Source: an uncultured beta proteobacterium (GTDB lineage Bacteria > Pseudomonadota > Gammaproteobacteria > Burkholderiales > Burkholderiaceae_C). From it: DNA of 34,907 nt. The position numbers were made by a program, and so were the translations under genes. The stretch spans positions 1 through 34,907 of the forward strand of contig CAIPBW010000299.1 in the NCBI GenBank assembly GCA_903863395.1, in the 5' to 3' direction. The notes beneath the pieces are model-generated. The model was not told where the DNA came from and did not search any database. It saw only the letters and a list, made by a program, of their open reading frames with translations. The stretch's first letter is position 1; every line of letters starts with the position of its first letter. Shown piece by piece: positions 6,382 through 21,342 of the stretch.

Positions 6382-6762
6382 ATGAGCAAAATTCTTCTCG
6401 TTGATGACCACGCTGACATCCGCCGCCTGATGCGCGTCACGCTGGGCAAAACCTTCGACATCCTCGAAGCCGAAGATGGTGCCAGCGCCCTGCAACTCGC
6501 CCGTGACGAGCGCCCCGACCTGATCGTTCTGGACGTCATGATGCCGGGCGAACTCGATGGCCTCGATGTGCTGGACGCGGTGCGCGCCGACCCCCAACTC
6601 AACGCTGTGCGCATCATCATGGTGACCGCGCGCGGACAAGTGCGCGATACCGAGGTAGGTATGCAGCGCGGTGCCGACGCCTATTTCGTCAAACCCTTCA
6701 GCCCGCTGCAACTCACCAGTTGCATCCAGGAAACCCTGGCCAAGGACATTCTTCGTGGCTGA
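6382..6762 (+). CDS. Single-domain (CheY-like) response regulator
   Basis: MSKILLVDDHADIRRLMRVTLGK...LIVLDVMMPGELDG...GADAYFVKPFSP. Confidence 0.9.
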   Translation: MSKILLVDDHADIRRLMRVTLGKTFDILEAEDGASALQLARDERPDLIVLDVMMPGELDGLDVLDAVRADPQLNAVRIIMVTARGQVRDTEVGMQRGADAYFVKPFSPLQLTSCIQETLAKDILRG

Positions 6763-7735
6763 AAGCCAAGGCGGCTCGGGCATCATGCCGCTCGCCGACC
6801 CAACGGCCAGCGAGACGACGGACCAGTTGCATCCGGTCATCGAGCAGGTGATCGACCAATATGGCTCGCTGGAAACCCGCTATGAACGTCTGCGCCACGC
6901 CTACGCCAGCCTGATGGAAAACCAGATTGAACTGCTGGAGCAGGTGCGCACGGCGCACGATATTCACCTCATTACCGACAGCGCTGGGCACATCGTCCAG
7001 GCCAGTCCCAGCGCGTGCCTTCTTGCGCCGCTGGATCAACTCCAAGGCAGCCTGCTGGAACAATGGGTGGCAGATTCCAGCCACGCGCAGTTGCTGGCGC
7101 TGCTCGCTCCTGCGCAAGCCGAGCAAGCCCAGCCCTGCAGCGTGGCTTTGCTCAGCCATGCAACAGCTACCCCATCGATCCCGGCCACGGTGCAGCGTGT
7201 CAGCAGCGACAAAAGCGGCGCGCGCCAGTTGCACTGGGTGCTGCGCCCCGATCCTGATGCTTTGGAGCCCGCCTTGCCTATAGATGAGGCGCTGGCCGCG
7301 CTCGACCGCAACGAGCAGGCCGCCATGACCACCAACGCAAGCGGAATCATTGTGGCGGTCAACGCCGGATTCGCCCACATTACCGGCTACAGCGCCGACG
7401 AAGCCATTGGGAAAAACCCCAGCTTTTTGCACTCAGGCTTGCAGGACGACGACTTTTACCGGGATTTCTGGCAAGAGTTGCACGACACCGGTGCCTGGCA
7501 AGGCCACGTGTTCAATCGGCGCAAGAGCGGTGACATCTATTCACAATGGATGGTCATCAAAGCCGCCAAGGATGCCCAAGGACGGGTTCTGCAGTACCAG
7601 GCTGTGCTCCACGACCTGAGCGCCGTTACCTCCAAAAAGCGGCAACGTTTGGCGCAGTCGCTCCCGCCCAACGTGTACCGTACCCAGGCGTCGACCAGCA
7701 TGCTGGGTGAACTCGGCGGCGATGCATCGCGATAG
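6755..7735 (+). CDS. PAS-domain protein (probably two PAS-like regions)
   Basis: ORF 6671-7735; GTG start at 6755 (overlapping the preceding stop) or ATG at 6785 likely. C-terminal PAS: MTTNASGIIVAVNAGFAHITGYSADEAIGKNPSFLHSG...HVFNRRKSGDIYSQWMVI. Confidence 0.75.
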   Translation: MAESQGGSGIMPLADPTASETTDQLHPVIEQVIDQYGSLETRYERLRHAYASLMENQIELLEQVRTAHDIHLITDSAGHIVQASPSACLLAPLDQLQGSLLEQWVADSSHAQLLALLAPAQAEQAQPCSVALLSHATATPSIPATVQRVSSDKSGARQLHWVLRPDPDALEPALPIDEALAALDRNEQAAMTTNASGIIVAVNAGFAHITGYSADEAIGKNPSFLHSGLQDDDFYRDFWQELHDTGAWQGHVFNRRKSGDIYSQWMVIKAAKDAQGRVLQYQAVLHDLSAVTSKKRQRLAQSLPPNVYRTQASTSMLGELGGDASR

Positions 7736-8407: not shown

Positions 8408-9271
8408 ATGAACACGTTGACCGACAGCATTTCCCTGCACTCCTGCCGCTGGCTTGCACGCTGGTGCGCCAGCCTGGCGCTGCTGCTGTGCGCGCTGCTG
8501 GGCACGGCGCAGGCGCAAGACGCTGCGGTTTACAAAGTGGGCGTGGTGCCGCAGTTTGACAGCCGAACCACCTACGACATCTGGACCCCGATCCTGGCGC
8601 AGTTGCAAACTGCCACGGGCCTGCACTTTCAACTGGTGGGCTCGCCCAATATCCCGGAATTTGAAAAACGCGTGAGCCAGCAGGAATTTGACTTTGTTTA
8701 CCTCAACCCCTACCAGTGGCTGGTGGCCAGCAACAACTACGTGCCGCTGGTGCGCGATGTGCAGACTCCGCTGGAAGGAATCATTGTGGTGCGCAAGGAC
8801 AGCGCCTTTAACGAGCTCTCCGACCTCAAGGGCAAGACCGTGGACTTTCCGGCACCCAATGCACTGGCAGCTTCGCTCATGACGCGCGCCCATCTCGACC
8901 AGGCGGGCGTAAACGTGCAGGCACGCTACGTCAAAACCCACACCTCGGTGTACCTGAACGTGGCCTTGGGCCAGGCCGATGCCGGTGGCGGCGTGCTGCA
9001 AACCCTGGAAGACCAACCGGCGGCGGTACGCAAGCAACTGCGCGTGATCTACAAGACCAATGCGGTCGCATCGCACCCGTTGGCAGCCAACCGACAACTC
9101 AGTGCGGCGCTGCGCGACCAGGTACGTGCCGCCCTGGTCGCTCTGGGCGAGTCAAAAGACGGGCACGCCCTGCTGCTGCGGGTCCCGTTTGACCAGGTCG
9201 GTCGCGCCAGCGCCGACGACTACACCCCGCTGCGCCGCATGGGACTTGAAAAGTACTATGTCCCGAACTAA
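8408..9271 (+). CDS. PhnD-like (phosphate/phosphite/phosphonate-type) periplasmic substrate-binding protein
   Basis: Signal peptide ...LALLLCALLGTAQAQDA; YKVGVVPQFDSRTTYDIWTPILAQLQTATG, EFDFVYLNPYQW, LSDLKGKTVDFPAPNALAAS are typical of this family. Confidence 0.82.
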   Translation: MNTLTDSISLHSCRWLARWCASLALLLCALLGTAQAQDAAVYKVGVVPQFDSRTTYDIWTPILAQLQTATGLHFQLVGSPNIPEFEKRVSQQEFDFVYLNPYQWLVASNNYVPLVRDVQTPLEGIIVVRKDSAFNELSDLKGKTVDFPAPNALAASLMTRAHLDQAGVNVQARYVKTHTSVYLNVALGQADAGGGVLQTLEDQPAAVRKQLRVIYKTNAVASHPLAANRQLSAALRDQVRAALVALGESKDGHALLLRVPFDQVGRASADDYTPLRRMGLEKYYVPN

Positions 9272-12218
9272 GTCGTCCGCCAGTTTGCAACAAAAGCTGC
9301 TGGCGCCGTTTTTCGCGGCGATGCTGCTGTTTGCGCTGGGGTTGCACTTTATCTGGCTGCCCTCGCGGTTGGATGATGCGCGCCACGAATTCCGGCGCAC
9401 GCAGGAGTCGATGCTGGCGGTGCTCACGCCGGCCCTGACCGGTCTTTTGCTGAGCGAAGACCTGGTGCAGGTGCACGCGACGCTGACGCAGACGGCAAAA
9501 GACTTTCCGCAGTGGGTTGACATTGCGTTGTACGACCCCCAGGGGCGGCGCCTGTTTCCGGTGGAGAACCGCGATGAGTCCGAGGCCGAGCACCTGATCT
9601 GGCTTGAAGTAGCGCTGCGCTACCAGGACACCGCGCTGGGCCGTCTGCGCGTGGCCACCGATCCCACTGGCGTGCTGCAAGCCGAGGCACGCAAGATCTG
9701 GGAGCTGGAAGCGAGCCTGCTGGTGATGGTGATGCTCACCGTGGGCCTGTTCCTGTGGCTGCAAAACCGCTTGATCGTGCGCCCGCTGCGCCAGTTGGCC
9801 GAAGTGGCCAACCGCCTGGCGCAGGATGACTTTGCCGCCGTGCTCCCAACGCCCAAGGACGACGAGGTGGGCTACCTGATTCGCGCCTTTGACGCCATGC
9901 GCTCGCGGCGCCAGTCCACCGAAAGCGCCCTGGTGCAGGCCAACGAGCGCAGCAAGGCGGCACAAGAGTTGGCCGAGGGCGCGCGCAACCTGCTGCACGA
10001 AGCGGTGAGCAATGTGGCGCAGGGCTTCACGATCTACGACCAGCAAGACCGTCTGGTGCTGTGCAACGAAGCCTATCTGAACATGTACGAGGCCAGCCGC
10101 GACCTGATTGTTCCGGGCGCCACGTTTGAAGAGATCGTGCGCAAGGGAGCCGAGCGCGGGCAGTACCTTGAGGCACTGGGGCGGGTGGACGAGTGGGTCA
10201 AGGGCCGTGTGGAACAACACCAGAACGCCCATGGCGAGGTACTGCAACAGGAGTTGGGCGACGGCCGCTGGCTGATGATCATCGAGTACCGCACCCCCAG
10301 CGGCTACATCGTAGGCAACCGGGTCGAAATTACCAACCTCAAGCGCACCACCACGCAGTTGCGTCAGCGCATCCTCTACCAGCGCGCCACGCTGGACAAC
10401 TTGCCGTTCCAGTTCTGGCTCAAGGACACCGAGGGCCGGTTCCTGGCGGTCAACAAGGTGTTTGCCAACTCCTACGGTTATTCCGATCCCGAGCAGATCA
10501 CGGGGTTGACCGACTTTGACATTTGCCCGTTGGAAAAGGCGCAGCGCTACCGCTCCAACGACCAGGAGGTGATGGACTCCCGCAAGGACTTGCTGCTGGA
10601 AGAGTCACGCATTGGCAGCCAGGGTCCGCGCTGGTCGGAAGTATTCAAGAAGCCGGTGATCGGCGACGATGGCGTCTTGCTCGGCACCGTGGGCTTTGCG
10701 CGCGACATCACCGAGCGCAAGCAGATGACCCGCGCCCTGGCCGCGAGCGAGCAGCGCTGGAGCCTGGCGGTCACAGGTTCCAATGACGGCATTTGGGACT
10801 GGGACACCCAGGCCGAGACCGTGTACTTCTCGGATCGCTGGAAGTCCATGCTGGGCTACGAAGTCGAGGAACTGAGCAACGACTTTGAGGAGTGGAGCAC
10901 GCGCATTCACCCCGAAGACCGTGAGCGCGTCATCGCCGACTTGCAGCGCCATCTGGAGGGCCTCTCGCAGCACTACCAGAGTGAGTACCGCCTGCGCTGC
11001 AAGGACACAAGCTACAAATGGGTGTACGACCGGGGCCAGGCCTTGTTCAACGAGACAGGAAAGCCAATCCGCATGGCTGGATCGCTGGCCGACATTTCGG
11101 AGCGCAAGGCAACGCAAGCGCAGATTCTGGACCGCACCGAGCAGCTCAACGCCATCTTCCTGCTCAGCCCCGACGGCTTTGTGTCGTTTGACCGCGCGCT
11201 CAAGGTCAAGTCGGTCAGCCCCGCGTTTCTGCGCATGACCGGACTGGTCGAGTCCGAACTGATCGGTCTGGACGAAGCCGCGTTTTCGCAACGCCTGTCC
11301 CAGATGTGCCCGCCCACGGCCAGTTTCCCGACGATTGCTGCGCTGCGCGCAAGCAGCAAGTTCCAGTTGAATGACGACGACAGTGCGCAAGGCGAAGCCA
11401 GCGGCAAGCGCCATCTGTTTGAACTCACGGCCAGCCACCGCATGCTGGAAGTGCAGCTGCGCCTGTCCAACGCCGAGACGGTGTCGCAGATCCTGTATTT
11501 CCGCGACATCACGCACGAAGTGGAAGTGGACCGCATCAAGACCGAATTCCTCGCCACCGCTGCGCACGAGTTGCGCACCCCGATGTCGAGCATCTTTGGT
11601 TTTGCCGAGTTGCTGATGTCGTTCGACTTCAGCGCCGAGGAGCGCATGGAATACATCCAGATCATCCACAGGCAATCGGGCCTGATGGTCACCATCCTCA
11701 ACGAGTTGCTCGACCTGGCGCGCATTGAAGACCGGCGCGGCAAGGATTTCAACCTGAGCGATATTGAATTGGGGCACTTGCTGGCCGACGTGATCGATGG
11801 ATACAAGGCACCCGCCGGGCGCGCCGTGTCGCTTCAAGTGGGCGCAGAAGGGGCGCTGCGCATCCGGGCCGATCGCGGCAAGCTGATCCAGGCTGTGAGC
11901 AACGTACTCTCCAACGCCTACAAGTACTCGCCCCAGGGCGGCGCGGTAGAGCTCACGCTGATCAACCAGAGCGCGCAGACGGATGATCCGCGCATCGGCA
12001 TTTGCATCCGCGACCACGGCATTGGCATGACGCCCGAGCAGCTTGCACGCGTGTTTGAACGCTTTTACCGGGCCGATACTTCCGGCAAAATCCCCGGAAC
12101 CGGGCTGGGAATGAGCATTGTCAAGGAAATTATTGAACTGCACGGCGGCAAGATAGATATCACCAGCCGCCCGGGAGAAGGTACCATGGTGACCTTGTGG
12201 ATGCCGGTCACTCCATGA
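9258..12218 (+). CDS. HAMP, multi-PAS sensor histidine kinase
   Basis: ORF 9060-12218; start at ATG 9258 (MSRTKSSASLQQKLL) overlapping the PhnD-like stop. TMs, HAMP (NRLIVRPLRQLAEVANRLAQDDF), several PAS domains, FLATAAHELRTPMSSIFGFAELL, NVLSNAYKYSP, DHGIGM, GTGLGMSIVKEII. Confidence 0.9.
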   Translation: MSRTKSSASLQQKLLAPFFAAMLLFALGLHFIWLPSRLDDARHEFRRTQESMLAVLTPALTGLLLSEDLVQVHATLTQTAKDFPQWVDIALYDPQGRRLFPVENRDESEAEHLIWLEVALRYQDTALGRLRVATDPTGVLQAEARKIWELEASLLVMVMLTVGLFLWLQNRLIVRPLRQLAEVANRLAQDDFAAVLPTPKDDEVGYLIRAFDAMRSRRQSTESALVQANERSKAAQELAEGARNLLHEAVSNVAQGFTIYDQQDRLVLCNEAYLNMYEASRDLIVPGATFEEIVRKGAERGQYLEALGRVDEWVKGRVEQHQNAHGEVLQQELGDGRWLMIIEYRTPSGYIVGNRVEITNLKRTTTQLRQRILYQRATLDNLPFQFWLKDTEGRFLAVNKVFANSYGYSDPEQITGLTDFDICPLEKAQRYRSNDQEVMDSRKDLLLEESRIGSQGPRWSEVFKKPVIGDDGVLLGTVGFARDITERKQMTRALAASEQRWSLAVTGSNDGIWDWDTQAETVYFSDRWKSMLGYEVEELSNDFEEWSTRIHPEDRERVIADLQRHLEGLSQHYQSEYRLRCKDTSYKWVYDRGQALFNETGKPIRMAGSLADISERKATQAQILDRTEQLNAIFLLSPDGFVSFDRALKVKSVSPAFLRMTGLVESELIGLDEAAFSQRLSQMCPPTASFPTIAALRASSKFQLNDDDSAQGEASGKRHLFELTASHRMLEVQLRLSNAETVSQILYFRDITHEVEVDRIKTEFLATAAHELRTPMSSIFGFAELLMSFDFSAEERMEYIQIIHRQSGLMVTILNELLDLARIEDRRGKDFNLSDIELGHLLADVIDGYKAPAGRAVSLQVGAEGALRIRADRGKLIQAVSNVLSNAYKYSPQGGAVELTLINQSAQTDDPRIGICIRDHGIGMTPEQLARVFERFYRADTSGKIPGTGLGMSIVKEIIELHGGKIDITSRPGEGTMVTLWMPVTP

Positions 12219-12385: not shown

Positions 12386-12766
12386 ATGAAGAAGATATTG
12401 ATCGTGGATGACAACGCGATGATTCGCGAAATGCTGCGGCTTACGCTGTTTCGTTGCTTTGCCCTGGACGAAGTGGACAGTGCCGATGCCGCCTACGAAC
12501 ACATTCTTGCCGACCGGCCCGACGGCATTGTGCTCGACGTCATGATGCCCGGCAGCATGAACGGCTTCCAACTGTGCGAACGCATCAAGGACGACCCCGC
12601 GCTCAAGGACATCCATGTGGTGCTGGTCACCGCCTGCGGCCAGGTGGCTGACCGCGAACTCGGGCTGGCGCTGGGTGCCAACGCCTACTTTGTCAAGCCC
12701 TTCAGCCCCAACGCCTTGGTCACCCACCTGCGCAAAGCCCTGGAAACCGAGGAGAACCCATCATGA
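12386..12766 (+). CDS. Single-domain (CheY-like) response regulator
   Basis: MKKILIVDDNAMIREMLRLTL...GIVLDVMMPGSMNG...GANAYFVKPFSPNAL. Confidence 0.9.
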   Translation: MKKILIVDDNAMIREMLRLTLFRCFALDEVDSADAAYEHILADRPDGIVLDVMMPGSMNGFQLCERIKDDPALKDIHVVLVTACGQVADRELGLALGANAYFVKPFSPNALVTHLRKALETEENPS

Positions 12767-13290
12767 GCGGCAGCACCCAAGCCATGCAATCCAATTCCCT
12801 CGCCTACATCGGCCAAAGCGCGACCGCTGAAGACGTGCTGCGTGCCCTGAGTGCGGGCTGGATGCACGCCCCTTGGGGCATGGCGGTGGTGGACGCGGCA
12901 GGGGTGATCTGCGCGATCAACCCCGCTTTTCACAAATGCACCGGCATCGCCCACGGCGAACTGCTTGGGCAGGCGGAGTCGGTGCTGCAAGCCAAGCTCG
13001 AACTCTCCATGCTCAACCACCGGCGGGTGGAAGTCGGCACCAGCGGCGTACGCGCGGTGCACTACCTCTCGGACGCCGTGGCCCAGGAGACCATCGACCA
13101 GAAGCTCTCGCGCGTGGCCGAGCTGCTGCGCGAACCGCTGACCAGCGTGTACGGCTTTACCGAATTGATGCACGGCGAGGGTTTTGACGAAAGCACGCGA
13201 AAGGAGCTATCGGCCAAGGTGATGGTGCAGATCGAACTGATTTCAAGCATCATCAATACCCACCTCGACCAGGCTGCGGTGCCGCCCTGA
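12763..13290 (+). CDS. PAS domain plus degenerate DHp-like protein without ATPase domain
   Basis: 175 aa; PAS MAVVDAAGVICAINPAFHKCTGIAHGELLGQ; then RVAELLREPLTSVYGFTELMHGEGF aligns by eye with AAHELRTPMSSIFGFAELL of the neighbouring kinase; no N/G boxes. ATGA overlap with preceding gene. Confidence 0.75.
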   Translation: MSGSTQAMQSNSLAYIGQSATAEDVLRALSAGWMHAPWGMAVVDAAGVICAINPAFHKCTGIAHGELLGQAESVLQAKLELSMLNHRRVEVGTSGVRAVHYLSDAVAQETIDQKLSRVAELLREPLTSVYGFTELMHGEGFDESTRKELSAKVMVQIELISSIINTHLDQAAVPP

Positions 13291-13301: not shown

Positions 13302-13619
13302 ATGCGAAACCGAATCCGCTACCTGCCCACCTTTGAGGCAACCCAGGGAATGGTTCTGGCCGAGCCGGCGCAGGACCGCCACCTGCGCAACATCCTGCCC
13401 ACCGGCCACACCCTGTCGCAAGAAAACCTGCAGCAACTCATTGCGCACCAGGTCGAACTGGTGTGCATCACCGTGCCCGACGTGCGCCGCGCCGAAGAAG
13501 TGGCGCTGGAAGTCTCCCAGGTAGCCAAGCGCGTGCTCGACACGTTTGAGCACGCCGACCTGTCTGACACGGTCACCGCTGCCCTGTTCAACCAGGTGCT
13601 GACCTACCGCAGCGCGTAA
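13302..13619 (+). CDS. Small hypothetical protein, resembling the linker domain found in some HD-GYP proteins
   Basis: 105 aa; FEATQGMVLAEPAQDRHLRNILPTGHTLSQENLQQLIAHQVELVCI; between the PAS and HDOD genes, same strand. Confidence 0.65.
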   Translation: MRNRIRYLPTFEATQGMVLAEPAQDRHLRNILPTGHTLSQENLQQLIAHQVELVCITVPDVRRAEEVALEVSQVAKRVLDTFEHADLSDTVTAALFNQVLTYRSA

Positions 13620-13624
13620 CCACC

Positions 13625-14476
13625 ATGCCAATCACGCGCGACCACGTCATCGCCAAGAGTGCCGACCTGCCGACCTTTCCACTGGTGATTGAGAGAATTC
13701 TCTCCACCCTGGAAGACCCCGACGCCAACCTCAACGCCCTGGTGTCGTACATCGAGCACGACCCTGTGGTGGCAGGCCATGTGCTGTCGATGGCCAACAA
13801 GGCCGGCACCAGCCGCTATGGCGGCGCGCGCATCAACGACATCTTCACCGCGATCTCGCTGATCGGCCTGGCGCGCGTGCGCGAGGCGGCGATTGTGATG
13901 AGCCTGTCCAAGGTGTTTGAGGGCCTTCAGCCGCCAGGCACGCACGACTACTTCTGGCGCCACAGCGTCGCAGTAGGGGTGTGCAGTGTGGAACTGGCGC
14001 ACTGGACGCAAGCCACGCTGAGTGTGGATACGGCACTGATAGCCGGACTGCTGCACGATGTCGGCCAGCTCTGGCTGCAGCGCTTTGAACCATCGGCATT
14101 CAACCATGCCATGAGCGAAGCCGTGCGCCAAGGCGTGGAGACGGTGGTTACCGAGCGTGAAGCGCTTGGCATCGACCACGGCACCATCGGCGGCTGGCTG
14201 GCACAAAGCTGGGGCCTGAGCGAGCCGATTACCAGTGCCATCGTCCACCACCACACGCCCGAAGGCGTAGCGGCGCAACCGCTGGCCGCGGTGGTACACG
14301 TTGCCGAGGTACTGAGCAACGCGCTCGATCTGACCCACAGTGCGAATTCCCGCGTCACCCGGATTTCTGCCGCCAGTTGCGCCACGCTGGGCCTGCAGTG
14401 GGGCGACGACTCGCACCGCCTGTTTGGCCGCATCGAAGCCCGCAGCCGTCAAGCCGCCGCCCTGTTTGTGCGCTAA
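13625..14476 (+). CDS. HDOD-domain protein
   Basis: ADLPTFPLVIERILSTLEDPDANLNALVSYIEHDPVVAGHVLSMANKA...INDIFTAISLIGLARVREAA...GLLHDVGQLWL. Confidence 0.88.
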   Translation: MPITRDHVIAKSADLPTFPLVIERILSTLEDPDANLNALVSYIEHDPVVAGHVLSMANKAGTSRYGGARINDIFTAISLIGLARVREAAIVMSLSKVFEGLQPPGTHDYFWRHSVAVGVCSVELAHWTQATLSVDTALIAGLLHDVGQLWLQRFEPSAFNHAMSEAVRQGVETVVTEREALGIDHGTIGGWLAQSWGLSEPITSAIVHHHTPEGVAAQPLAAVVHVAEVLSNALDLTHSANSRVTRISAASCATLGLQWGDDSHRLFGRIEARSRQAAALFVR

Positions 14477-14610: not shown

Positions 14611-15666
14611 ATGCACATGGCTGACGCATTGTTGTCACCCGCTGTCGGGGTCACGCTCTGGGCGGGATGCGCGGCAGTGCTTGCCCGGTGCGCGCGCAAG
14701 GTACGCTCGGATGGGCGCGAGGATCTGGTGGCGCGCATGGGGGTGCTGGGTGCCTTTGTGTTTGCCGCGATGATGATCAACTTCACCATCCCGGGCACGG
14801 GTTCGAGCGGCCATATCGGAGGCGCGCTGCTGTTGTCGGTGCTGCTGGGGCCGCACGCCGCCTTGGTGGTGATGGCCTCGGTGCTGACGGTGCAGGCGCT
14901 GTTTTTTGCCGATGGCGGGCTGCTCGCGCTGGGTGCCAATATCGTGAACGTGGGCGTGTTTCCCTGCTTCGTGGGCTACGCGCTGATCTACCGGCCACTG
15001 CGCCGGCGCGCGGGGTCGGCGGCATCGCGCCGCCAACTGGTAGCCATCACGGTGCTCTCCACGGTGGTCGGCTCGCAACTCGGCGCGCTGGGCGTGGTGC
15101 TGGAGACACAACTCTCGGGCATCAGCAGCCTGCCGCTTGCCAGCTTCTTGTGGCTGATGCAACCGATCCACCTCGCCATTGGTTTGATGGAGGGGCTGGC
15201 CACGGCCGCGCTGGTGGCGTTTGTGCACCAGGCACGGCCGGACCTGCTCGCGGCCGAACCATCCCCCGCCAACGCCCGACCCGCCTTGGCCACGCGCTGG
15301 TTGGCCACTACCGTTGTGCTGGCCGCGTTGACTGCAGGCGTGTTCTCCTGGTTTGCGTCCACGCAACCCGATGGCCTGGAGTGGTCGATCGCGCGCATTG
15401 CAGGCGCAGCAGTACCCACCGCACCAGTCACCGCCTTGCACCGCGAACTGGCTGACGTGCAAAAGAGGGTGGCGGTGTTTCCCGACTACCGCCTCGCCAC
15501 CGCAGATGCGCCCAACAATGCCGCCGCACCCGCCTGGCCCGCGGTGGACGCGACCACCTCGCTGGCCGGTGTTGTGGGCGGTGCTGCCACCCTGGCACTG
15601 GTGTCGCTACTGGCCTACCTGATGCGCAGGCGCAGCAGGCGCGCCGTGTCCGGCGCTGAGCGCTAG
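14611..15666 (+). CDS. nikMN: Nickel/cobalt ECF-type transporter, fused NikM(CbiM)-NikN(PDGLE) permease
   Basis: MHMADALLSPAVG N-terminus (His2 expected for metal coordination), multi-TM protein with GALLLSVLLGPHAALVVMASVLTVQALFFADGGLLALGANIVNVG; C-terminal PDGLE motif TQPDGLEWS and final TM. Confidence 0.88.
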   Translation: MHMADALLSPAVGVTLWAGCAAVLARCARKVRSDGREDLVARMGVLGAFVFAAMMINFTIPGTGSSGHIGGALLLSVLLGPHAALVVMASVLTVQALFFADGGLLALGANIVNVGVFPCFVGYALIYRPLRRRAGSAASRRQLVAITVLSTVVGSQLGALGVVLETQLSGISSLPLASFLWLMQPIHLAIGLMEGLATAALVAFVHQARPDLLAAEPSPANARPALATRWLATTVVLAALTAGVFSWFASTQPDGLEWSIARIAGAAVPTAPVTALHRELADVQKRVAVFPDYRLATADAPNNAAAPAWPAVDATTSLAGVVGGAATLALVSLLAYLMRRRSRRAVSGAER

Positions 15667-15687
15667 CCCCCACTTCGCCGCCTGCCT

Positions 15688-16500
15688 GTGAGCCGCATCG
15701 CCGCAGCCCTGGAGGACTTTGCCTCGCTTGAGGCGCTGGCAACGCGGCGTACCGCACTCACGGCGCTTGATCCGCGCGCCAAGATTCTGGCTACCCTGGG
15801 CTTCATCGTCGCGGTGGTGTCGTTTGACCGTTATGCCGTGGCGGCCTTGCTGCCGTTTGCCGCGTTCCCGGTGGTTCTGGCGGTGCTGGGCGACATCCCC
15901 TGGCGCGTGGTGGCGCGCAAGGTCTGGATCGCAGCGCCCTTTGCCGTGATGGTTGGCATCTTCAACCCCATGCTCGACCACACGCCCATGCTGCAACTCT
16001 GGGGCACTTCGGTCAGTGGCGGCTGGGTGTCGTTTGCCTCGATCCTGACGCGCTTTGCCCTCACGGTGGCAGTGGCCGTGCTGCTGCTGGCGGGCACCGG
16101 GCTGCATCCGCTGTGTACCGGCTTGGCGCGCATGGGTGTGCCCGGCGTCTTCACCACCCAACTGCTGCTGATGCACCGCTACGCAACGGTGCTCTCCGCA
16201 GAAGCCGCACGCATGAACCTGGCGCGCGAACTGCGCGGCGGCAGTGCGCGCGCGCTGAGCCTGCCGGTGTATGCCACGCTGCTGGGGCACTTGCTGCTAC
16301 GCTCCTTTGAGCGTGCCCAGCGCATCTACCAGGCCATGGCCTCGCGCGGGTTTGACGGCGCAATGCGCCCGCCACAAGCCCTGCACTGGCGCAGCGCCGA
16401 CCTGCTTTTTGTGGCCCTGTGCTGGGCCAGCTTTGGTCTGGCGCGAACGCTGGACTTGCCCCACCTGCTGGGCCGCTTGCTGCTGGGGCAACTGCAGTGA
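15688..16500 (+). CDS. nikQ: CbiQ/NikQ energy-coupling transmembrane component
   Basis: GTG start; LTALDPRAKILATLGFIVAVVSF, RELRGGSARALSLPVYATLLGHLLLRSFERAQRIYQAMASRGFDG are CbiQ-family motifs. Confidence 0.88.
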   Translation: MSRIAAALEDFASLEALATRRTALTALDPRAKILATLGFIVAVVSFDRYAVAALLPFAAFPVVLAVLGDIPWRVVARKVWIAAPFAVMVGIFNPMLDHTPMLQLWGTSVSGGWVSFASILTRFALTVAVAVLLLAGTGLHPLCTGLARMGVPGVFTTQLLLMHRYATVLSAEAARMNLARELRGGSARALSLPVYATLLGHLLLRSFERAQRIYQAMASRGFDGAMRPPQALHWRSADLLFVALCWASFGLARTLDLPHLLGRLLLGQLQ

Positions 16501-17255
16501 ACACGCCCCTGATCGAAGCGCGGGACTTGCGCTACGCCTACCCCGATGGCCGCGAGGCCTTGCGGGGTTTGAGCTTTTGCATCCACGCAGGCGAATCGGT
16601 GGCCATCATCGGGGCCAATGGCGCGGGCAAATCGACGCTGCTGCTGCACCTCAACGGCGTGCTGCGTGCCAGTGCCGGTGCGGTCTGCATCGCGGGCACG
16701 CCGATTACCGAAGGCAGCCTGGCCGAGGTGCGGCGCAGCGTGGGGCTGGTGTTTCAGGACCCGGACGACCAGTTGTTCATGCCCACCGTGCTGGAAGACG
16801 TGGCCTTTGGCCCGCGCAACCAGGGTCTGGACGAAGCGCAGGGGCAAGCGCGCGTGGCTACGGCACTCGAAACAGTAGCTGCCAGCCACCTGGGCCAGCG
16901 CGCACCCTACCATCTCTCCGGTGGCGAAAAGCGCGCTGTGGCGATTGCCGGGGTGCTGGCGATGGACGTGCGTGTGCTGGTGCTCGATGAGCCCAGCGAC
17001 GGCCTTGACCCGGCCGCGCGCCGACGCCTTATCCGCCTGCTCAACGCGCTCGCGCACACCAAGATCATCGCCACCCACGACCTCGATCTGGTGCTCGACG
17101 TGTGCACGCGCGTGCTGGTGTTGGGCAATGGCAGCATTGCAGCCGATGGCACGCCCGAGCAGATCTTTACCGATGCCGCGCTGCTGGAGCGTTGCCAACT
17201 CGAGCCACCCTTGAGCTGGCAAGCGCGTGGCCCGGCGCGCGCTCAAGGTGCCTGA
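16497..17255 (+). CDS. nikO: CbiO/NikO ABC ATPase
   Basis: ORF 16419-17255; GTG start at 16497 overlapping the nikQ stop. Walker A GANGAGKST, Q-loop FQDPDDQLF, signature HLSGGEKRAVAIAG, Walker B VLVLDEPSDGLDP. Confidence 0.93.
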   Translation: MNTPLIEARDLRYAYPDGREALRGLSFCIHAGESVAIIGANGAGKSTLLLHLNGVLRASAGAVCIAGTPITEGSLAEVRRSVGLVFQDPDDQLFMPTVLEDVAFGPRNQGLDEAQGQARVATALETVAASHLGQRAPYHLSGGEKRAVAIAGVLAMDVRVLVLDEPSDGLDPAARRRLIRLLNALAHTKIIATHDLDLVLDVCTRVLVLGNGSIAADGTPEQIFTDAALLERCQLEPPLSWQARGPARAQGA

Positions 17256-18601
17256 AGGCTCCCCTGCTGGGGCAGGCGCAAGACAAATTCCGCGCCGCCG
17301 CCGGGCCGGTTGCTGGCGCTCAAATTGCCGCCGTGGCGGTCCACAATGCCGTAGCTGATCGACAGACCCAGCCCGGTGCCCTGGCCCACCTGCTTGGTGG
17401 TGAAGAACGGCTCAAACAAGCGCCCCAGATGGTCGGGCGCAATGCCGGGCCCGTTGTCGGCAAAGCGCAGTTCAATCATGCCGCCGTGGCAATGCCCGCT
17501 GATGTGCAGGCGCGGATCGGCCGCGCTGGCGGTGGCGTCGCAGGCGTTTTGCACCAGGTTCATCACCACTTGCTGGAGCTGGCCGGAGGAGCCGGTGCAA
17601 ACCAGGTCGGGTGGTAGCTCCACATCCACCTTGAAGCGCGACGCCGCACTTTGCGTCACCCAGCGCACCGAGCGCTCCACCACCTCGTTGAGGCGCACGT
17701 CCTCGGGGTTGGCCTTGTCGATGGCCGAGAAGCGCTTGAGCGCATCGACAATGTCGCGCGTGCGTTCGGCCCCCTCGACCATGCCTTCGATCAGCACAGG
17801 CATATCGGCCTGGATGCGGTCAATGCGCAACTCCTGGCGCAAGTCCTGCAGCGCCGCGTTGTCGGCGCAGCCGTTGGCATGCACCGCCTGTAGATAGCGC
17901 TCCAGACGCTGGCCGTAGCGCTGCAGCGACAGCACATTGCCCAGCACAAAGCTGATCGGGTTGTTCAGTTCGTGCGCCACACCCGCCACCAGGCGGCCCA
18001 GCGACACCATTTTTTCGGCGTGCAGCAACTGGCTTTGCGTGCGCTTGAGGTCTTCGTGCGCCTGGCGCAGGGCCTGGTAGGCGCGCTGCAACTCGCCCAC
18101 CGGTCGGCCCGTCACCACCGTGCCGATGAGCTTGCCAGTTTGCGACAGACGCGGCGTGCAGTTCATCGACACCGGCACCGTGGAGCCGTCGCCCGCGCGC
18201 AGGAAAAACTCGCAGTCGTACAGGCTCTCGCGTCCCACGGCGGAAAACATGGCGCGCGCCTTGACGCGCTGGGCGTCATCCGCGAACAACTCGTACACCG
18301 AGGTGTGCTCCAACTCCTTCAAGGGTTTGCCACACAGATGCAGCATGGAAGGATTGACCTCGACGATGGCACCATGACGATCGCAGACAATCAGGATGTC
18401 GGACATCGACGCCAGCACGCTCTCAATGAACTGGTGCGAGTCCTCCAGCGCGGCGTTCTTCTCTTCAAGCTCCACCTCGTACTGAAGCAGTTCGTTATAG
18501 ACCTCGTCCATCTTCTGGATCACTTCGATCCAGGCCTGCTCGCCAAACTGTTCGCCCGCTGCGGGCACACCCGGCCTAGCGGGCGGGGCGGTAGTGGACA
18601 T
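17243..18601 (-). CDS. hoxJ: HoxJ/HupT-type histidine kinase of the H2-sensing cascade
   Basis: Start at 18601 (MSTTAPP). WIEVIQKMDEVYNELLQYEVELEEKNAALEDSHQFIESVLASMSDILIVCDRHG is the HupT/HoxJ N-terminus/PAS signature; H-box VAHELNNPISF, ATPase DNGPGI, GTGLGLSISYGIV. Confidence 0.85.
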   Translation of the reverse strand: MSTTAPPARPGVPAAGEQFGEQAWIEVIQKMDEVYNELLQYEVELEEKNAALEDSHQFIESVLASMSDILIVCDRHGAIVEVNPSMLHLCGKPLKELEHTSVYELFADDAQRVKARAMFSAVGRESLYDCEFFLRAGDGSTVPVSMNCTPRLSQTGKLIGTVVTGRPVGELQRAYQALRQAHEDLKRTQSQLLHAEKMVSLGRLVAGVAHELNNPISFVLGNVLSLQRYGQRLERYLQAVHANGCADNAALQDLRQELRIDRIQADMPVLIEGMVEGAERTRDIVDALKRFSAIDKANPEDVRLNEVVERSVRWVTQSAASRFKVDVELPPDLVCTGSSGQLQQVVMNLVQNACDATASAADPRLHISGHCHGGMIELRFADNGPGIAPDHLGRLFEPFFTTKQVGQGTGLGLSISYGIVDRHGGNLSASNRPGGGAEFVLRLPQQGSLQAP

Positions 18602-19040
18602 GCGCCTCTCCCTGTGCACTATGCGCGTGGTGATGCGCCGCCAGGAGCGCCACCACATTGAGCTTGCCGTGGCGCACGCCGCGCTGCGCCATCAGGGCAT
18701 CGGCAAACTGGCGCACGTCGGCGGTGGGGCCTTTCAGGATCACCGACTCCATGCAGTTGTCGTGGTCCAGGTGCGAGTGCATCGATGCCACCGTCAGGTC
18801 GTGGCGCTGGTGCTGCAAGCCGGTGAGCCGCTCCGCGAGTTCGCGTTCGTGGTGGTTGAACACATAGGACAGATTGGCCACGCAGTACCCAGCAGGTGTG
18901 TCGCGCTGGCGGTCGCCCTCAATCGCACTGCGGATCAAATCACGCACCGCCTCCGACCGGTTGGCATACCCGCGCGCCGCGATCAGGTCATCAAACTGGC
19001 TGGCCAGCGATTCGTCCAGAGAAATGGTGAAGCGTTCCAT
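18576..19040 (-). CDS. nikR: Nickel-responsive regulator NikR
   Basis: Start at 19040 (MERFTISLDESLASQFDDLIAARGYANRSEAVRDLIRSA ribbon-helix-helix); nickel-site region HQRHDLTVASMHSHLDHDNCMESVILKG and QRGVRHGKLN. Confidence 0.95.
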   Translation of the reverse strand: MERFTISLDESLASQFDDLIAARGYANRSEAVRDLIRSAIEGDRQRDTPAGYCVANLSYVFNHHERELAERLTGLQHQRHDLTVASMHSHLDHDNCMESVILKGPTADVRQFADALMAQRGVRHGKLNVVALLAAHHHAHSAQGEAHVHYRPAR

Positions 19041-19132
19041 CGAATTACCTCCATGCACAGCCACCCCGCCCCGGTCGGGCAACGCAGCTTGCGTATCCGT
19101 CCGCGCCTAACCAGGGCCGACAGCCCACCCGC

Positions 19133-19792
19133 TTAGTAGCGGTACGTCAGACCGATAGCGGCCCGGGGTAGCACCGTCAGGCTGCTGATTGAATCGCGCA
19201 TCGTCTTGGTTTGCGCGTCGATGTCAGTTTGTGTGATGGTGTAGCCGGAGTAGGTTTTGTTCAAAACGCTGGTGCTGACATCGGAATTGAACGAGCCGAT
19301 CGTGACACCGAGGTCGGCGTAAAAGCCCAGGCCACTTTGCTGGCCCGACTGATGTCCGAAGCCCAGCCCCAGGTAGGCTGTCGAATTGGGATAGGTAAGG
19401 TTCACGTTGAAGGTTTCGCCGGTCAGGTTCACGGGTTTGCCGTTGATGGTGGCGCTGCCGCCAACGCTTTTGAATTCGGCCTTGATGTCATTCATCGTCA
19501 AGCCACCCACCAGCCGGAAGCCACCGTCAAACGGGAACCAGTCGGCAAAAACGCCGGCTTGGCTGGCCTTGAGCGAACCGGTCGCGCTGATGCCGCTTTG
19601 AACCCCATCCTTGCTCATGCTCAGGCCAGCGGCGTATTCGCCGCGCAAGCCCCAGTTGGACCCCATGGGCTGTGCGTAACCGATTGAATACAGGCCCGGC
19701 GCGCCTACACCGCCAAACACATCGCCCGCCTGAGCAACGCCGCCCAGACCGAACAAAACAGCCAATACGACAAGGTTCTTATTCATAGTCAT
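19133..19792 (-). CDS. Putative outer-membrane beta-barrel protein, function unknown
   Basis: ORF 19133-19825; start MTMNKN at 19792, signal peptide NLVVLAVLFGLGGVAQAGD, alternating amphipathic strands, C-terminal aromatic (GLTYRY). Confidence 0.7.
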   Translation of the reverse strand: MTMNKNLVVLAVLFGLGGVAQAGDVFGGVGAPGLYSIGYAQPMGSNWGLRGEYAAGLSMSKDGVQSGISATGSLKASQAGVFADWFPFDGGFRLVGGLTMNDIKAEFKSVGGSATINGKPVNLTGETFNVNLTYPNSTAYLGLGFGHQSGQQSGLGFYADLGVTIGSFNSDVSTSVLNKTYSGYTITQTDIDAQTKTMRDSISSLTVLPRAAIGLTYRY

Positions 19793-19920
19793 TTCCCCCG
19801 GTTCACCCAAAGCCACCAACCCCATTGTGCCTTGCTAGCCACGCGGGCGCATGGGTGCAAGCTATTGCGGCCATCATAATCCATCCGCTTTCAATCGTGC
19901 ACGTGCCAACCGGGTTACGC

Positions 19921-21342
19921 TCAATGTACTGTGCAGACCATGCAGGGATCAAACGACCGCACCACATGCTCGATGGTGGGTTCTGCGCCCTCGCCTGCGG
20001 GCAAGCCTACCAGGGCCAACTCCAGCGGACCGGGTTGGCCACGGGTGTCGCGCGGGGAAAAATTCCAGGTGGTGGGGGCGATGATCTGGTAGCGCTCGAT
20101 TTGCCCGTCCTTGACCGATATCCAGTGGCCCAGGCCGCCGCGTGCGGCTTCCACCAGGCCCACGCCTTGCCCGCTGTGCGGCAGTTCACTGCTCTGGTAG
20201 AAGGCCTCGCCCAGAGTGATGTCACGCAGCCACTGCTCCATGGCGGGCAGCACGCGCGCGAGTTCGACCATGCGCGCCACCATGCGTGCGCTCACGCTGG
20301 CGCCGTGGCGTTGCACCAGGTCGCGCAACAGCGGCTGACCCGCGACCATCTGACGCGCCAGCGCACCGGTCTCGGCAACCTGAGCGCCATAGCGCGGTGC
20401 CTTGCACCAGGTGTAGGCGTCGGTCTTGTCCACATCGACCACAGTCTGCCCCTCGGCGGGCGACAGCGGGGCGCTGCCGGACAACCACGCATGGCGCGTG
20501 TCCTCGGTGATTCTCTGCGGCTCCAGCGGCTCCACGCCCAGGCCGGGTTGCCACACGCCGCTGGGCCACAAGTCGTAGGCCCCGTAGGACAGAAAACGGT
20601 CGGCCGCGCACCCTATTTTTTCCAACCCCAGATCAAATGCCAGTTGCAAAAACTGCGCAAAGTCGCCCGATCGGCCCGCAGCCCAGGCGCGCAAGGCGTC
20701 TTCGGAATCGATTTGCGCAAAGTGCTCGAGCGTGTCGCCGATCAGCGTGGTTTCCACAAAGGCGCGAAAGTCGCGCAGCAAGGCCTGGATGCGCACGCGT
20801 TCCGACGCCGTGATGGCCTTGGTGCTGCCGCCGGCCTGCAAGGCCAGGGAATGCGGCCAGCGCCCGGCCATAAAGCCCATCAGCTTGAGCAGGTTGGCGC
20901 GCGCCACCAGCGCCGGTGCCGCTGCCGAACCCTGGCCCGCCATGAAACGCGCCGCCGCCCCCGCGTACCAGCCGCGCGTGGCGTACTGGCTGCGCGTGAA
21001 GTCGGGCATGAAGAACAGGTAGAAGTGCGTCACATGGTCGGCCAGGTTTTCTGCCGCCTGCACCAGATGCGCGGCAAGCCTGCCATTGGGGGGCGCTTGA
21101 ACACCGCAGAGCGCTGCCAGCGCTGCCGCGGCCGCCGCCGACTGCGCCACCGAGCAGATGCCGCAGATGCGCGGCACGATGGTCAGCGCGTCGTGCGGTG
21201 GTCGCCCCACCAGCAGTTGCTCAAAGCCCCGAAACAGCGGCGAATTCACCTGCGCCGACGCGACTTGCCCGCCAAGCACTTCGAGACTGATTTCCAGATC
21301 GCCTTCCACCCGGTTGAAGGGCCCAAGCAGCACGCGGCTCAT
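19921..21342 (-). CDS. hoxC: Regulatory (H2-sensing) [NiFe]-hydrogenase large subunit HoxC/HupV
   Basis: L1 motif RICGICSVAQ; protein ends directly at the L2 motif SFDPCMVCTVH-stop with no cleavable C-terminal peptide. Confidence 0.93.
   Translation of the reverse strand: MSRVLLGPFNRVEGDLEISLEVLGGQVASAQVNSPLFRGFEQLLVGRPPHDALTIVPRICGICSVAQSAAAAAALAALCGVQAPPNGRLAAHLVQAAENLADHVTHFYLFFMPDFTRSQYATRGWYAGAAARFMAGQGSAAAPALVARANLLKLMGFMAGRWPHSLALQAGGSTKAITASERVRIQALLRDFRAFVETTLIGDTLEHFAQIDSEDALRAWAAGRSGDFAQFLQLAFDLGLEKIGCAADRFLSYGAYDLWPSGVWQPGLGVEPLEPQRITEDTRHAWLSGSAPLSPAEGQTVVDVDKTDAYTWCKAPRYGAQVAETGALARQMVAGQPLLRDLVQRHGASVSARMVARMVELARVLPAMEQWLRDITLGEAFYQSSELPHSGQGVGLVEAARGGLGHWISVKDGQIERYQIIAPTTWNFSPRDTRGQPGPLELALVGLPAGEGAEPTIEHVVRSFDPCMVCTVH

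Follow-up and report, generated by a model that had tools for sequence, protein, structure and literature searches.

A conserved sensor-kinase fragment, predicted to be catalytically dead, encoded beside a single-domain receiver in an uncultured beta proteobacterium

Gene organization of the locus

The analyzed window (34,907 nt of contig CAIPBW010000299.1) contains a row of signalling genes on the + strand. A PhnD-like periplasmic binding protein (8408-9271; Phosphonate-bd, E 1e-53) likely provides the input of a multi-PAS sensor kinase with HAMP, PAS, HisKA and HATPase_c domains (9255-12218). A single-domain receiver (12386-12766; Response_reg, E 1e-22) is encoded further along the row. Its gene overlaps by ATGA with an ORF at positions 12763-13290, whose translation is a protein of 175 aa, designated P0001, composed of a PAS-like domain and a pseudo-DHp. 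The ATG of this ORF, preceded by a GAGGAG Shine-Dalgarno sequence, shares bases with the TGA stop codon of the receiver gene, in agreement with the overlap reported in the initial annotation, and the receiver is regarded as the co-translated partner of P0001. The stretch RVAELLREPLTSVYGFTELM, quoted in that annotation, is present in the protein.

P0001 had been described as a PAS and DHp fragment without an ATPase domain. The ORF reads as described, and Pfam and NCBIfam searches revealed no HATPase_c/CA domain in P0001 or directly after it. The 3′ neighbour begins at position 13302, 11 nt past the P0001 stop codon, and encodes a 105-aa protein (13302-13619, + strand) with no Pfam or NCBIfam match. 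It is 76% identical in G012, a genome of another species of the genus, the highest conservation among the nine genes compared. The possibility that a kinase was split or frameshifted, leaving its ATPase part downstream, was rejected, since the next gene encodes a different protein that is conserved in G012. The row continues with an HDOD-domain protein (13625-14476, + strand; HDOD, E 2e-42), a possible output of the locus. The same order of genes (kinase, receiver, P0001 relative, 105-aa protein and HDOD protein) was found in G012.

Translated ORFs beside this signalling island (14611-21342) were read as cobalt/nickel-type transport genes, a NikR-like regulator, a sensor kinase and a hydrogenase large-subunit-like gene.

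On the opposite strand, a PAS-PAS-HisKA-HATPase kinase (40-2484) keeps HATPase_c and carries the H-box VVDREVRTP, in which His is replaced by Arg. Taken together with P0001, this kinase had led to the suggestion that two degenerate H-boxes reflect a scaffold design. The syntenic gene in G012 (L011, 2310-3866, - strand) encodes a counterpart of 518 aa that ends after the second PAS domain, without HisKA or HATPase. Conservation thus does not extend to the pair of degenerate H-boxes, and the argument for a scaffold design is weak.

Predicted fold and relatives of P0001

The first 20 residues of P0001 are predicted to be unstructured. They are followed by a shortened PAS-like domain (12847-13068, residues about 29-102) recognized from sub-threshold Pfam PAS/PAS_4 matches (E 0.004), a TIGR00229 match (E 8e-5) and AF2 strands at residues 39-44, 48-52, 86-93 and 96-102, which together with helices form a PAS-like unit spanning residues 39-102. 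The PAS matches are sub-threshold in all four known members of the family, AF2 gives four strands whereas the PAS fold has five, and in the alignment the domain is approximately 40 residues short of the last PAS domain of the neighbouring kinases. The core residues W...PWG and NPAF are invariant in the four members.

The C-terminal part consists of two AF2 helices, i.e. DHp helix 1 with the E-x-L-R-E-P motif (13075-13176, residues 105-138) and DHp helix 2 (13189-13278, residues 143-172), with the HisKA alignment extending to residue 169. Block pLDDT values within the hairpin are mostly 86-95 in a model based on a 23-row alignment. The initial annotation had made its reading depend on a two-helix DHp hairpin; AF2 predicted one for P0001 and also for the distant relative from G1106 (introduced below), whose model, obtained with the four-member alignment only, has the same layout. 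The HisKA (PF00512) match of P0001 (E=2.5e-4, 21.5 bits) falls under the Pfam cut-off of 26.9 bits, which is exceeded by all three relatives (33.0, 36.7 and 34.2 bits), and a four-member profile retrieved most related kinases at E values of about 1e-20 to 1e-31 (about 1e-82 for the members themselves). The similarity of P0001 to HisKA is thus more than chance, and the modelled DHp-type two-helix hairpin, HisKA by homology, can be taken as real. Foldseek comparison with the PDB placed histidine kinases and PAS proteins on top, at TM-scores of only 0.3-0.4 and large rmsd, probably because the two domains are placed differently relative to each other; the result is used simply to support a protein of PAS-DHp type.

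Over the PAS-DHp region P0001 is about 30% identical to the upstream kinase (9255-12218), and sequence comparison traces its origin to the family of this multi-PAS kinase. Three relatives were identified: one in G012 (53% identity), one in a genome from a different family of the order (G622, 43%) and one in a genome from a different order of the class (G1106, 45%), the last order being represented by four genomes. The members are of similar length (156-175 aa), with the ORF intact in four species of two orders, and all those seen lie in multi-contig draft genomes. The family is rare: roughly 1,900 genome searches, repeats included, yielded at least four members. The wide surveys scored the first 8-11 candidates per genome, and members were possibly missed. 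A single-sequence P0001 scan of 85,000 genomes returned no relatives; with a three-row profile, the scan gave the records already known and two weak hits similar to parts of the query only (L019 and L020). Viral contigs contained no P0001 relatives, and plasmids nothing beyond distant PAS/kinase similarity.

In a tree of the DHp region the four members form one clade (100/99 support) outside 19 related kinases, which indicates that catalysis was lost long ago and that this loss has been maintained, whether the receiver-fragment pair was inherited vertically or transferred. In the comparison with G012, the dN/dS of P0001 is about 0.26, at a dS of 1.5 that is near saturation; the HTH-receiver genes of the row show values of 0.24-0.25, and the partner receiver, at 0.10, is held more tightly than P0001. 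Identity is unevenly distributed along the protein: helix 1 is the best-kept segment (26/34 positions, 76%), followed by the PAS-like domain (42/76), loop and helix 2 (16/34) and the tail (8/28).

A pseudogene was rejected in view of the open frames in the relatives and the dN/dS value. It is likewise highly improbable that P0001 is a functionless relic of a duplicated kinase. Such a reading would agree with a truncated paralogue that is rare and, among the nine genes compared with G012, the most diverged, but the frame is open at similar length in four species of two orders, the comparison with G012 indicates purifying selection, and every member has the same three positions replaced and the same receiver neighbour.

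A single-domain receiver gene lies directly 5′ of the P0001-type gene in each of the four loci, with the ATGA overlap in three of them and a spacing of 28 nt in G622. The partner receivers are 63-74% identical to one another, versus 43-52% to two other receivers of these loci, and they group together in the receiver tree, where support is weak (88/26). A kinase of the parent family is also present in all four loci; in G1106 it is located two genes downstream. The HDOD and 105-aa genes are not adjacent to the members in G622 and G1106.

No further member was found behind related receivers of the genus; the gene that comes next there encodes another, longer PAS protein. A second receiver of the window (6382-7735), like the related receivers of the genus (L036-L046), also precedes a longer PAS protein, of about 310-330 aa in most cases, so that receiver and PAS protein form a parallel pairing. 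In G622, a 398-aa kinase-like protein with a sub-threshold HATPase_c match (L015, 4394-5590) is encoded beside receivers and is possibly another degenerate kinase.

Replaced catalytic positions and putative partners

The phospho-acceptor position of P0001 is occupied by Glu120 (codon GAG, 13120-13122), which aligns with the H-box His of the kinases, in agreement with the previously claimed H-to-E substitution. Conservation of this Glu in orthologues had been put forward as a check, and it is present in all four members, whereas 19/19 related kinases have His. Two further positions of the motif differ. At +1, Leu121 (13123-13125) stands at the position of the Glu needed for autophosphorylation; the members have L/S/A/L and no acid, and the kinases invariably Glu. 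At +4, Glu124 (13132-13134) takes the phosphatase Thr position, with Glu in 4/4 members versus Thr in 19/19 kinases. The motif thus reads A-E-[LSA]-L-R-E-P-L in the family and A-H-E-L-R-T-P-[ML] in the kinases. A departure from the kinases as strong as that at 0/+1/+4 is seen in only 0.28% of position triples of helix 1 (residues 116-138). The rest of helix 1 is kinase-like: of the 18 core positions, the catalytic ones counted, 9-12 agree with the neighbouring kinase, Arg at +3 and Pro at +5 are kept, and positions +11, +12, +14 and +15 are G, F, E and L in all members and nearly all kinases. The last four correspond to L254, A255, E257 and M258 of EnvZ, which together with T250 (+7) and R251 (+8) are its helix-1 receiver-specificity positions (PMC2991266).

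In EnvZ, mutation of H243 or D244 abolishes autophosphorylation, and phosphatase activity is lost in the R246A, T247A and P248A variants (PMC2991266). P0001 has neither the H-box His nor the HATPase_c/CA domain of an active histidine kinase, and in place of the HisKA-type phosphatase motif E/DxxT/N the family carries L/S/A at +1 and Glu at +4. A shifted phospho-acceptor common to the family was ruled out, as no alignment column has His in all four members. Judged by its sequence, P0001 is a conserved, catalytically dead sensor-kinase fragment made beside a lone receiver, and its probable role is to bind signalling partners with no transfer of phosphate.

It is very unlikely that the fragment is an altered receiver phosphatase, in which Glu120 and Glu124, both invariant in the members, would remove phosphate from the receiver by a novel mechanism. 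The pair has the i, i+4 spacing of the acid/amide pair of CheZ, but the Thr, Asn or Gln that orients the attacking water is absent, and we know of no phosphatase of the HisKA-type class with Glu at the water-orienting position. The retained +3 Arg and +5 Pro both matter for phosphatase activity in EnvZ (PMC2991266), and archaeal HisKA proteins without HATPase have been suggested to be phosphatases (PMC5847659).

As the best explanation we tentatively propose, at close to an even chance, that P0001 is a stand-alone histidine pseudokinase fragment acting as a docking partner of its co-translated receiver. Docking without phosphotransfer is suggested by the constant presence of a receiver gene next door, together with translational coupling, the kept helix-1 face and the lost catalysis. 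The DHp hairpin would dimerize, or at least fold, and offer its kinase-like helix-1 face to the receiver. With His, the +1 Glu and the +4 Thr replaced, P0001 would neither donate nor remove phosphate; it might instead retain, titrate or detect the receiver in one of its phosphorylation states. In this way it could compete with the upstream kinase and/or relay the state of the receiver through the PAS-like domain, with the HDOD protein as a possible recipient. The G-F-x-E-L residues are common in HisKA for structural reasons, so their retention is no proof of receiver docking. Further points against it are the greater divergence of helix 2 relative to helix 1, the small number of members found, at least four, and the CA domain, which is kept in the pseudokinase DivL and absent here.

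An improbable extension of this scheme is a DHp that mimics phospho-His, with Glu120 and Glu124 imitating the charged donor, holding the receiver in a kinase-bound-like form and setting its free pool. In DivL, receiver affinity is the same with Tyr or His at the acceptor position (PMC4211667), which advises caution in calling the Glu phosphomimetic.

The main rival to receiver docking, possible though on balance unlikely, is a DHp-DHp heterodimer inhibitor resembling RetS: the fragment would take the place of one DHp in the four-helix bundle of the upstream kinase and block trans-autophosphorylation, in the manner of RetS on GacS. Among PDB chains, the four-member profile matches best the DHp in entry 7n0e, a GacS-RetS complex (E 3.9e-6), the GacS homodimer interface is replaced on RetS binding (PMC12148439), and a kinase of the parent family is encoded in every locus. 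However, the conserved direct neighbour is the receiver and not the kinase, helix 2, which makes up half of the dimer interface, is less conserved than helix 1, and the PAS-DHp linker of the members is 4 residues shorter than that of the kinases, with K/H/R at a Phe invariant in the kinases. Receiver docking is tentatively favoured over the heterodimer on account of the strict receiver link and the weaker conservation of helix 2.

Alternatively, the PAS-like domain could be the working part of a sensor or scaffold dimer, in which the hairpin is a dimerization handle to the 105-aa and HDOD proteins. The invariant PAS-like core and the presence of both genes downstream in G012 are consistent with this. 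We consider it quite unlikely, given that these genes, unlike the receiver gene, are not adjacent in G622 and G1106, the PAS-like domain is reduced in length, and conservation is higher in helix 1.

Comparison with known systems

The multi-PAS kinases of the same loci (e.g. 9255-12218) share a homologous last PAS domain and DHp with P0001, which differs from them in the missing HATPase, the replaced His, Glu and Thr, and the shortened PAS domain and linker. RetS is likewise kinase-like and acts on another kinase through its DHp, which makes it a possible model for P0001; it is, however, a hybrid kinase of large size that sits in the membrane and has a CA domain (PMC12148439). The archaeal HisKA proteins without HATPase, described as nonenzymatic and histidine-kinase-like, also combine PAS/GAF with a C-terminal HisKA-like domain, but they keep the His (PMC5847659), whereas the P0001 family has Glu and is bacterial and receiver-linked.

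The closest parallel to receiver docking is DivL of Caulobacter, in which PAS domains and a DHp with a non-His acceptor site are linked to a single-domain receiver, DivK. DivL has Tyr at the acceptor site, lacks kinase and phosphatase activity, and binds DivK~P specifically (PMC4211667); the same lack of activity would be expected of P0001. A non-His acceptor in a DHp next to a single-domain receiver is found in all four loci. DivL differs in being a much larger, multi-PAS protein that keeps the CA domain and other histidine kinase motifs, whereas P0001, at 175 aa, has Glu (rather than the Tyr or Ala of alphaproteobacterial DivL) and also lacks the CA domain, the +1 acid and the +4 Thr; the profile match to DivL in the PDB (4q20) is weak (E 0.012). 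P0001 is therefore not placed among the DivL orthologues.

As far as a limited literature search shows, the combination of a missing CA domain, a missing acceptor His and receiver coupling is undescribed. DivL and other histidine pseudokinases are, for the most part, known as large proteins that keep a CA domain; if the proposed role is correct, P0001 would be a very small natural pseudokinase consisting of a PAS-like domain and a DHp hairpin only. Its family, with three catalytic positions replaced, the remaining helix 1 kept and one kind of receiver alongside in two orders, would thus offer a compact, testable case for separating receiver binding from phosphotransfer.
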